Shown here: positions 40,015 through 42,665 of the stretch, one piece after another
Layout: each line of letters begins with the position of its first letter
Position numbering within the stretch: position 1 is the first letter of the stretch
Origin: Bacteroidota bacterium
GTDB taxonomy: Bacteria > Bacteroidota > Bacteroidia > Bacteroidales > JABHKC01
DNA: 64,000 bases
Reading direction: 5' to 3'
Assembly (NCBI GenBank): GCA_018692315.1
Contig: JABHKC010000153.1
Span: 1 to 64,000, forward strand
Translations under genes and position numbers: made by a program
Notes under the pieces: model-generated
What the model saw: only the letters and a program-made list of their open reading frames with translations
Told to the model about the DNA's origin: nothing
Database searches by the model: none

Positions 40015-40124
40015 AATTATTGTTTTGTTTAGTCTTACAAAATTAGCTAAAACTTTTAAAACTATTGAATATATTCATTCTCAACATTCCAAAAATCTGA
40101 AATTTGCAAATAAAAAAAATGTAA

Positions 40125-40178
40125 ATTTGCGATTGTAAACGCAAAATTAATATTAAATTTGCGTTTATAAACGCAAAT
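40125..40178 (+). promoter_or_regulatory. Two palindromic operator-like sites overlapping the ATPase promoter
   Basis: Two 22-base sites of the form ATTTGCG-N8-CGCAAA lie at 40125-40146 (imperfect) and 40157-40178 (perfect palindrome). Their centres are 32 bases apart, close to three helical turns. The second contains a TAAATTTG -7 box (40154-40161) with TTG 18 bases upstream inside the first. It ends three bases before the ATG at 40182. A third related half-size palindrome (ATTTGCAAAT) lies at 40102-40111. Confidence 0.6.
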
Positions 40179-40181
40179 GTT

Positions 40182-41315
40182 ATGATAAATAGAATTCTTG
40201 AAAGGATAATTTATTCACATCTTGACAAAGGAAAAATTATACATATCCCTGGTCCACGGCAAGTTGGCAAAACTACTCTCCTAAAAAAAATTGAAAAGGA
40301 GACAAAGTTAAGGAGTTTATGGTTGAATGGAGACGAGGCAGAGGTTCGAGAAATGTTATCGGATAAAAGTTCTAAATTTCTGAAAAGTATTATTGGTAAA
40401 AATGAAATAGTAATAATTGATGAAGCTCAAAGAATTACTAATATTGGTATCACCTTGAAATTAATTATGGAGAATTTTCCTGATTTGAAAATTTTAGCCA
40501 CTGGTTCTTCAGCCTTTGATTTAGCAAACAAGATTAATGAACCATTAACAGGTAGAAAGATTGAATCATTTTTATTTCCATTATCTTTTTCAGAGTTGGT
40601 AAAACATACAAACATTTTAGAAGAAATTGGGATGCTTGAAAATAGAATGATTTTTGGTTATTATCCTGAGGTAGTAACATCTCCAGGCGATGAAAAGGAA
40701 GTATTGAAGAGGTTATCAGACGCTTATTTGTATAAAGATTTGTTAGCTTTTGAGAACCTGAAAAAATCTAATAAGATAGAAAAACTACTGCAAGCAATAG
40801 CTTTGCAAATTGGTAGTGAAGTTTCATATAACGAATTGGGAAGAATTGTAGGTTCTGATAATGAAACTGTTGAACGATATATTGATTTATTGGAAAAAGC
40901 CTATATAGTTTTTCGTCTTTCGTCTTTGAGTCGAAATTTAAGAAATGAACTAAAGAAAAGTAGGAAAATATATTTTTATGATAATGGGATTCGCAATGCT
41001 CTAATTCGGAACTTTAATCCTTTAAGCTTAAGGCAAGATACCGGAGCTTTATGGGAAAATTTTCTTATAGCTGAACGAATGAAAATGACAAGTTATTCAG
41101 GAAGGTGGATGAATAAGTATTTTTGGCGAACACATGCTCAACAAGAAATTGATTATATTGAAGATTACGGTGGAAAATTGTATGCCTATGAATTTAAATG
41201 GAATAAAAATCGGAAAGTTCGATTTTCAAAAACTTTTGTAAAAGCATACCCTAATAGCGAAACCAAATCAATTTCAACTGATAATTTTGTAGATTTTATT
41301 ATGGAAGCTGAATAA
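40182..41315 (+). CDS. AAA+ ATPase with C-terminal DUF4143 domain
   Basis: The 377-residue protein has Walker A at residues 24-31 (GPRQVGKT), Walker B near 78-86 (IVIIDEAQR), and a sensor-1-like 'LATGSSAFDL'. The C-terminal DUF4143 region follows (about 180-340), including a winged-helix-like 'YNELGRIVGSDNETVERYIDLLEKAYIV' and a PD-(D/E)xK-like strand (EIDYIED...LYAYEFKW). Members of this family are widespread, often horizontally spread, and of unclear function. The nuclease-like C-terminus suggests nucleic-acid handling, but this is inference. Two palindromes overlap its promoter, and the winged helix makes autoregulation possible. Confidence 0.85.
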   Translation: MINRILERIIYSHLDKGKIIHIPGPRQVGKTTLLKKIEKETKLRSLWLNGDEAEVREMLSDKSSKFLKSIIGKNEIVIIDEAQRITNIGITLKLIMENFPDLKILATGSSAFDLANKINEPLTGRKIESFLFPLSFSELVKHTNILEEIGMLENRMIFGYYPEVVTSPGDEKEVLKRLSDAYLYKDLLAFENLKKSNKIEKLLQAIALQIGSEVSYNELGRIVGSDNETVERYIDLLEKAYIVFRLSSLSRNLRNELKKSRKIYFYDNGIRNALIRNFNPLSLRQDTGALWENFLIAERMKMTSYSGRWMNKYFWRTHAQQEIDYIEDYGGKLYAYEFKWNKNRKVRFSKTFVKAYPNSETKSISTDNFVDFIMEAE

Positions 41316-41366: not shown

Positions 41367-41489
41367 AGGGGACTTCTAAAAATGCAAATTTCTTCGTTGC
41401 TTCAAAATTTCAAAATCCTCATTTACAATAGTAAACTGCGGTTTTGAAATTTCTTACGCCTTGAAATTTACTATTTTTAGAAGTCCCCT
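41367..41489. repeat. MITE-like 123-base imperfect palindrome
   Basis: Perfect 17-base terminal inverted repeats (41367-41383 and 41473-41489, starting AGGGGACTTCT) enclose an interior that is itself partly self-complementary (AAATTTC blocks on both arms), with its centre near 41428. It has no coding capacity. It fills the gap between the converging ATPase and SRAP genes. Confidence 0.65.
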
Positions 41490-41499
41490 ATAGGAAATT

Positions 41500-42321
41500 T
41501 TAATTCAAGTGCCTGCCCCAAGTAGGAGCATCGGTAGTTCTTTTGTTGCTCCCCATTCCTTGAAGTTGAAGTTCTTTTGTCGATTTTATCTCAAATTCAG
41601 TTTCTATTCTTTGACCGATAGGTTCTATCAAAATTTTTCCTTCTGCTTTTGGGTTTTTAATTGTGGGGGTAATAGGGTAGGCGTTCATCAATTCGGAAGG
41701 GTATGCCCGCAAAAGTCTAATTATATCGCTTAGAGGAGTTTTATTATTTAACCATTTTTTTTCATTATGTTGGTGCAAAATTACCGGTGAACGTTGATGT
41801 GGTAATTTTTGTATTAGCGAATTTGCAACAGTTGTAATTATTGAAAATGATTCAACCAATTCACCTGTTTCGCTGTTTTGCCAGCTATCCCAAATTCCTG
41901 CAAAAGCAAAAGGTCTTTTTTTGTCCCTTAAATATATAAGGTATGGTTTGCTTAAGCCTTCATTTGTTGTTCCTTCGATAAAAGCATCAGCAATTACCAG
42001 ACATCTGCGACTACGTATAGGTTTTCTGAATGCTGGCTTTCTGACTATTTCACAAGATCCACTATAGTTTGAGTCATTTTCTTTATTTTTATCTCCTTCT
42101 ACACGAGCATTAAAAAGGTACATTTGCTTTTTTGCCCAAAATGGTGTTAATCCAAATTTGAACATTTGCAAAATGTTTGGATCTTCATTAGTAATAATTG
42201 GTGCTAACTGTCCGGGCGAAATATTGTAGCTTGTTTTATACTCAATTTCATTTGGGATTTTAATGTTAAACCGCTTTTCTATGACTTCAACTTTCTGAAC
42301 TTCAATATATCTTCCACACAT
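41500..42321 (-). CDS. SOS response-associated peptidase (SRAP / HMCES / YedK family)
   Basis: The start is set to the ATG at 42321 because SRAP enzymes need Cys2 at the mature N-terminus (MCGRY), which the longer frame to 42333 would block. The other active-site residues are present: Asn71 (FNARVEG), Glu116 (ADAFIEG) and His183 (SPVILH). The protein is 273 residues, slightly longer than YedK. HMCES/YedK forms a DNA-protein crosslink with abasic sites in single-stranded DNA, protecting forks. The usual FYEW motif is changed here to FIEG, keeping the Glu. No LexA box was identified. Confidence 0.9.
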   Translation of the reverse strand: MCGRYIEVQKVEVIEKRFNIKIPNEIEYKTSYNISPGQLAPIITNEDPNILQMFKFGLTPFWAKKQMYLFNARVEGDKNKENDSNYSGSCEIVRKPAFRKPIRSRRCLVIADAFIEGTTNEGLSKPYLIYLRDKKRPFAFAGIWDSWQNSETGELVESFSIITTVANSLIQKLPHQRSPVILHQHNEKKWLNNKTPLSDIIRLLRAYPSELMNAYPITPTIKNPKAEGKILIEPIGQRIETEFEIKSTKELQLQGMGSNKRTTDAPTWGRHLN

Positions 42322-42665
42322 AAAAATTATCAATTAAAAAAAACTCAAGATACAAAATCTCAAACTAATTTTTCGACCTTGCTATTAGAATATAATTTTA
42401 TCAAAAATATTTAATTTTACTATAAAATAATTGGAAAAATGTCGATTTGTATAATTTAATTTTACAAGATTATTTTTCTTACTTAAAAACAAATTTTTAG
42501 TTTTAATGTAAATCCTGAGCTTTTTCGCACATTATCAGGCGATTATATATTTTGAATTTATATTAATTAGAGATATTTATATTAATATTTTTTTTTCAAA
42601 TAATTTTGAAAATCAAATTTCGAATTAATATCTTTGCCGCTCATTTTTAAAATAAAAAATTTGGT
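42322..42665. other. Intergenic region upstream of rpsU
   Basis: 344 AT-rich bases without an open frame or convincing hairpin. Its only supportable content is the rpsU promoter at 42605-42637. Confidence 0.5.
42605..42637 (+). promoter_or_regulatory. rpsU-xerC-hpf promoter (Bacteroidetes consensus)
   Basis: TTTG (42605-42608) is followed after 20 bases by TATCTTTGC (42629-42637). This is a full match to TTTG-N19/20-TAnnTTTG. Transcription should begin near 42644, about 20 bases before the rpsU ATG. Confidence 0.75.

Follow-up and report, generated by a model that had tools for sequence, protein, structure and literature searches.

Which protein, if any, reads the phased palindromes that precede a DUF4143 ATPase gene in a member of the Bacteroidota? 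The gene lies at 40182..41315 of the window, by which we mean the whole stretch of DNA analysed, the first 64,000 nucleotides (forward strand) of contig JABHKC010000153.1 in assembly GCA_018692315.1; features are on the plus strand unless stated otherwise. It encodes a protein of 377 amino acids in which an AAA+ ATPase, a winged helix and a PD-(D/E)XK-like domain follow one another (PF13173 plus PF13635; PADLOC PDC-S01). A preliminary description of this DNA had proposed that the ATPase might be its own repressor, acting through its winged-helix-like segment. By computation we find palindrome arrays of constant spacing and private sequence, covariation of operator bases with protein residues 226-228, and a residue-to-base code that predicts held-out operators. 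These results strongly support the self-reading part of the proposal; the repression part follows from the position of the sites. Taken whole, we hold with good confidence that the protein binds through residues 226-228 to phased palindromes over its own promoter and represses its own gene.

Two putative operators stand before the gene. Copy 1 (40125..40146), ATTTGCGATTG-TAAACGCAAAA, is an imperfect palindrome with ATTTGCG-N8-CGCAAA arms in which 16 of 22 positions are symmetric, and copy 2 (40157..40178), ATTTGCGTTTA-TAAACGCAAAT, is perfect, with symmetry at 22 of 22 positions. The centres are exactly 32 bp apart, and three bases separate the end of copy 2 from the ATG at 40182. Each operator is overlapped by a consensus match to TAAATTTG (40122..40129 for copy 1, 40154..40161 for copy 2), which we take to be the Bacteroidota -7-type motif. 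In 5000 shuffles of the upstream sequence that preserve dinucleotides, the maximum array score is 21.0, and none attains the observed 24.0. The preliminary description was therefore accurate on the two 22-base palindromes, their spacing, the overlap with a -7 box and the three-base gap. The smaller palindrome that it added, ATTTGCAAAT, does exist at 40102..40111; its distance from the next centre is 29 bp, not 32 bp, which places it outside the register of the array.

The exact sequence is confined to this promoter. Within the window, TTTGCG-N8-CGCAAA occurs only at the two operator sites, and the genome-wide count suggested in the preliminary description finds exact ATTTGCG-N8-CGCAAA at no other place in the 5-Mb genome. 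When up to two mismatches are allowed, TTTGCG-N8-CGCAAA has six sites in the window where chance alone predicts 3.55, which is no enrichment of the loose pattern. For ATTTGCG-N8-CGCAAA at the same tolerance, both strands of the whole genome hold 189 matches against 56 for the reversed pattern, a difference from which we draw no inference.

The architecture recurs among relatives of the gene. Of 246 homologues, 183 have an array above threshold upstream of the ATG; among control genes taken from those stretches, 7 of 188 do. Elsewhere, arrays occur in 11 of 243 regions that follow the stop codon and within 1 of 246 genes. In 161 of the 183 arrays the copies are spaced 32 bp apart and in 22 they are 33 bp apart, while the operator sequence varies between genes. 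Direct repeats at a lag of 32 precede 49 of 83 homologues from the window genome and others (a set that still includes L049_2, a duplicate of L090_10) versus 2 of 188 control genes; among lags of 12-70, only 33 and the multiples 64 and 66 stand out besides 32. A separate collection, with record titles from several phyla, has 46 of 80 open reading frames (ORFs) above the 99% shuffle level. A scan of genome contigs kept the best 80 of 519 relatives. Excluded before counting were L049_2, the apparent copies L147_2/L147_3 of L022_2/L022_3, and ORFs for which our script could identify neither or only one of Walker A and start (L012_0, L079_12, L080_5, L019_0, L190_3, L174_2 and L105_2). A TAnnTTTG box of the -7 type is present in 134 of the 183 array-bearing upstream regions versus 44 of 188 controls, most frequently 16-17 bp after or 12-14 bp before the operator centre. 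Since the arrangement is the rule in this subfamily, the preliminary description misplaced the emphasis when it spoke of a rarely described autoregulated member.

A control AAA+ ATPase family, PF09820, behaves differently: unlike the window family, it has an array above threshold in 1 of 26 cases, and the lag-32 repeat is absent among the lags listed for it. These PF09820/DUF1703-type ATPases, presumably PDC-S27-like, resemble the window family in being multicopy in one genome. They also share the fusion of AAA+ to PD-(D/E)XK, as described in PMC1913061.

Operators also differ between paralogues. The window genome has 12 DUF4143 matches, several of which have upstream repeats, each with its own sequence. 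At one of them (L015; G000:C78:12372-12453), three exact copies of TTTCCAG-N4-CTGGAAA follow one another in 32-bp steps and have exact matches nowhere else genome-wide. The two operators searched genome-wide, that of the window gene and that of L015, match exactly only at their own promoters. The idea of one motif common to all homologues was rejected, the exact GCGATT palindrome pattern giving 0 matches in 395 genomes. A reverse search of 390 genomes with a GTGA-type palindrome returned three sites, compared with two for the reversed control pattern, and this count is no evidence by itself. Only position is informative: two of the three sites precede DUF4143 genes (triplets DKN and DKT), and one is near unrelated genes.

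Covariation points to the residues that might read such divergent sites. Half-sites were aligned from the outside to the centre (positions idx0-11; window half-site AATTTGCGTTTA), and partial correlations corrected for overall identity were computed over 100 non-redundant genes and all 377 protein columns. Position idx6 correlates with residue 228 (r = 0.54; next column 0.16), idx7 with residue 226 (r = 0.66; next column 0.28) and idx5 with residue 227 (r = 0.26; next column 0.19); residue 228 ranked first already in an initial run with poorer registers. Correlations of residues 217 and 216 with idx3 and idx4 are weak and mixed. In the predicted structure, residues 226-228 are located at the N-terminus of the recognition helix (residues 227-239) of a winged helix-turn-helix spanning about residues 209-248 (40806..40925; segment limits by our reading). 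Further along the helix, T229 is kept in 179 and Y233 in all 183 of 183 homologues.

The covariation can be written as a simple code. At residue 228, N goes with T at idx6, K or H with G, and E or Q with C; at residue 226, D goes with G at idx7 and S with C; at residue 227, K or N goes with G at idx5 and S or T with T. The window protein has the triplet D-N-E (codons at 40857..40865), which agrees with its operator core GCG at all three positions. By the known chemistry of contacts between side chains and bases, the pairings of K or H with G, E or Q with C, and N with T (that is, A on the other strand) are sensible.

The code was also examined in pairs of proteins. In pairs less than 42% identical, proteins that agree in the residue also agree in the base in 89% (228), 71% (226) and 72% (227) of cases, whereas proteins that differ in the residue agree in the base in 11%, 10% and 28%, respectively. 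Among the closest disjoint pairs with different predicted bases, a comparison that includes training genes, both bases are correct in 55 of 66 (228), 34 of 44 (226) and 28 of 55 (227), and the bases are exchanged in none at any of the three residues. Shared ancestry alone is thus insufficient to account for the link between residue and base.

To obtain predictions on unseen genes, the code was frozen in writing before new genes were fetched, some earlier-found loci being included. Of 107 new ORFs, 14 were dropped because their upstream region was too short or because they were at least 80% identical to a protein already seen; the remaining 93 genes are all less than 80% identical to any seen protein, and 71 have an array, called blind to the protein. 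The predicted base is correct in 55 of 61 cases at idx6 (residue 228), 55 of 63 at idx7 (226) and 49 of 69 at idx5 (227). Permuting the pairing of proteins and operators for 1000 rounds gives mean fractions of 0.32, 0.45 and 0.51 and maxima of 0.49, 0.65 and 0.64 for idx6, idx7 and idx5. An array-free test on 68 held-out genes gave a similar contrast, with 1.09 predicted palindromes per upstream region versus 0.29 under permutation (maximum 0.50) and 0.02 in control genes. Because the operator core covaries with recognition-helix residues and the frozen code predicts held-out operators, the ATPase very likely recognises its own upstream sites, and the code points to physical binding. The window motif is literally absent upstream of homologues, as it differs from gene to gene. 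Such absence had been put forward as fatal to the proposal, yet the idea stands: the architecture is common to homologues, and specificity changes along with the recognition helix.

In the mechanism that we propose, the first three residues of the recognition helix (226-228) would contact at least two palindromic operators that recur every 32 bp, or three helical turns, and each gene of the subfamily would have its own operator sequence, read by its own protein. An oligomer of the protein would occupy consecutive operators on a single face of the DNA, presumably binding cooperatively, and the overlap of operators with the promoter would repress its own gene. Repression of its own promoter is probable, because both window operators overlap -7-type boxes and the array ends three bases before the ATG. 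Release from the operator might be coupled to nucleotide state and nuclease action.

Several points weigh against this reading. No array above threshold is found at 63 of the 246 homologues, and distant DUF4143 subfamilies are arranged differently, with a 32/33-bp array in 3 of 18. The half-site register was set by a heuristic and corrected once on training genes, prior to the held-out test. The rule linking residue 227 to idx5 is weaker, N226 pairs with any base, and, where a held-out gene has a full prediction, all three bases are jointly correct in just 37 of 54 cases. The held-out set retains genes that resemble one another, and 17 of the 71 have the triplet SKN. The overlap between operator and promoter is defined by a consensus box only.

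Paralogues within one genome can also be compared in their specificity. Residues 226 and 228 are shared in 5 of 80 within-genome pairs, and between genomes they are shared in 10.4% of 3748 pairs; when pairs are matched for identity, however, the comparison shows no clear within- versus between-genome difference that would speak for selection of non-overlapping specificities. One genome (G202) has two genes with the triplet SKN. At another locus (L265; G419:C10:85575-88348), two DUF4143 genes with triplets DSK and NKV stand head to head, about 550 bp apart.

Other explanations of the arrays can be weighed against the same data. If the protein read its own sites as an activator or architectural factor, it would resemble STAND-type regulators such as IniR, which is described as activating (PMC5760070), and in many homologues arrays do reach upstream of the -7 box. 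The window operators lie over -7-type boxes and three bases from the ATG, a position that suggests repression, and we consider activation unlikely. A different possibility is that the palindromes are recognised by another cellular DNA-binding protein, as operators overlap promoters, where host factors bind. Yet even within a single genome the operators vary from gene to gene, and they track residues in the adjacent ATPase. A co-inherited separate regulator is also unlikely, because neighbour genes recur in at most 5 of 40 loci, the size of the largest neighbour cluster; we give recognition by another protein very little credence.

Were the array a replication origin of the iteron type, with an Orc/Cdc6-like initiator as its reader, an AAA+ protein with a winged helix would likewise stand beside iterated sites, and the window protein does resemble Cdc6/Orc1 in structure (2qby; Z 12.9). 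This is highly improbable. The gene is rare on replicons, with matches in 10 of 72,556 plasmid and 9 of 50,697 phage records, there are up to 16 DUF4143 matches per genome, and the adjoining ORFs in the window, EF-Tu-like and NuoF-like as judged by eye, have a chromosomal look. Moreover, the best structural matches are SSO1545/PAB2304 and NLR-type STANDs, and nuclease-like C-terminal residues are conserved. Finally, terminator-like stem-loops are called on the operator sites, as expected if the palindromes acted in the leader as RNA hairpins or terminators. Palindromy that is kept over at least two copies in a constant 32-bp register is more than a hairpin requires, and the operator core follows protein residues, which makes this explanation scarcely credible.

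The protein that would act as its own repressor has residues conserved among homologues. Its AAA_14 ATPase domain covers residues 17-139 (40230..40598), and the DUF4143 match covers residues 185-341 (40734..41204). Matches to PF13635 (143.5 bits) and PF13173 (97.4 bits) both exceed the gathering score. In aligned homologues the ATPase site is kept at Walker A K30 (183 of 183) and Walker B D80 (183 of 183) and E81 (182 of 183), and the PD-(D/E)XK-like residues at E298 (180 of 183), D324 (183), E337 (181) and K339 (182). A structure model built from 74 sequences (mean predicted local distance difference test score, pLDDT, 93) has an ATPase core and a winged helix, followed by an alpha/beta domain at the C-terminus, domains being assigned by our reading. 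VIA-align places it closest to the archaeal AAA+ ATPases PAB2304 (2qen; Z 17.2, root-mean-square deviation 3.2, 250 aligned) and SSO1545 (2fna; Z 16.8, 3.2, 252 aligned), followed by NLR/CED-4-type STAND proteins (Z ~14); Foldseek ranks RuvB at the top. By structural match, the core and following winged helix are arranged as in SSO1545-like/STAND AAA+ ATPases. The C-terminal domain model (residues 250-377; pLDDT 90.5) has weak Foldseek matches that include ACE1, McrC, Can2 and Hjc (best E 0.048). The gene thus encodes an AAA+/STAND-like ATPase of the solitary kind, in which a winged helix is joined to a predicted PD-(D/E)XK-like C-terminal domain, and conservation of both the ATPase and the nuclease-like site suggests a role beyond that of a repressor alone.

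PADLOC lists the family as a single-gene phage defence candidate, PDC-S01, whose model PDLC04789 matches the window protein over positions 1-374 of 375 (550.9 bits, E 3.4e-166); a defence role of this protein is accordingly a candidate one, by family membership. PDC-S01 is ranked fourth by frequency among the (candidate) defence systems of prokaryotes, with 29,494 bacterial and 9,986 archaeal instances, and is described as lacking experimental characterisation (PMC12988326); in rumen genomes it is reported to be the individual locus found most often (PMC13356809). DUF4143 is also named in a table row of PMC4406477. In its ATPase and predicted PD-(D/E)XK-like domain the window protein agrees with the description in PMC12988326, whereas the relevant passages of that paper name no operator, regulation or DNA specificity. 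In openly licensed literature we found neither operators nor a recognition code described for the DUF4143/PDC-S01 family. We know of no private operators for SSO1545 or PAB2304. Like STAND regulators and NLRs (IniR, MalT, CED-4, plant NLRs), the window protein has an NB-ARC-like ATPase core followed by a winged helix. DNA binding is reported for IniR (PMC5760070) and Rx1 (PMC4599002); the DNA-binding domain of IniR, as described there, is separate and C-terminal, unlike the window family, in which the code resides in the winged helix itself. A parallel for private autorepression is RepA of repABC plasmids, whose paralogues are described as each specifically autorepressing their own operon (PMC4492784), as we propose here for each gene. 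Those, however, are ParA-family plasmid partition proteins and not solitary ATPase-nuclease-like genes.

A private operator together with a residue-to-base code provides a directly testable handle on a very common family, for which the relevant passages of PMC12988326 and PMC13356809 give no mechanism. It suggests that NLR-like ATPases can use their winged helix to read DNA in a sequence-specific way, and the family offers a large natural set of related DNA-binding specificities. In eukaryotic relatives, the winged helix locks the inactive state. A tentative extension, which we think more doubtful than not, is that a huge class of prokaryotic NLR-like ATPase-nucleases uses the winged helix as such a reader with a simple three-residue code: docked on its private operator, the protein would be released by a trigger, and this release would both derepress the gene and free an oligomer able to activate the nuclease. 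If so, the trigger could be, for example, a shift in nucleotide state or a phage that inhibits functions of its host, the operator would serve as both thermostat and inhibitor, and the family would be a natural library of DNA-binding specificities.

Further observations concern the surroundings of the gene and its relatives. Downstream of the ATPase gene, a SRAP-family gene lies in opposite orientation (41500-42333, minus strand), with no sign of a functional link. Between them, 3' of the ATPase gene, is a 123-bp element (41367-41489) with 17-bp terminal inverted repeats (AGGGGACTTCTAAAAAT). This repeat end has 65 + 63 genome occurrences with up to two mismatches (reversed control 0), often paired about 123 bp apart, and the element belongs to a family resembling miniature inverted-repeat transposable elements. 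The window genome also contains a degenerate-looking DUF4143 copy (L012), whose open frame is just 288 amino acids long and begins past the Walker A region. Distant DUF4143 subfamilies often have long palindromes beside the ATG, or pairs about 53-54 bp apart (judged partly by eye). In L331, L337 and L347, two copies of CACGGTA...TACCGTG palindromes are about 54 bp, or some five helical turns, apart. Single long gene-specific palindromes stand immediately 5' of the ATG in L324, L325, L326 and L334, and probably represent the same principle in another arrangement.
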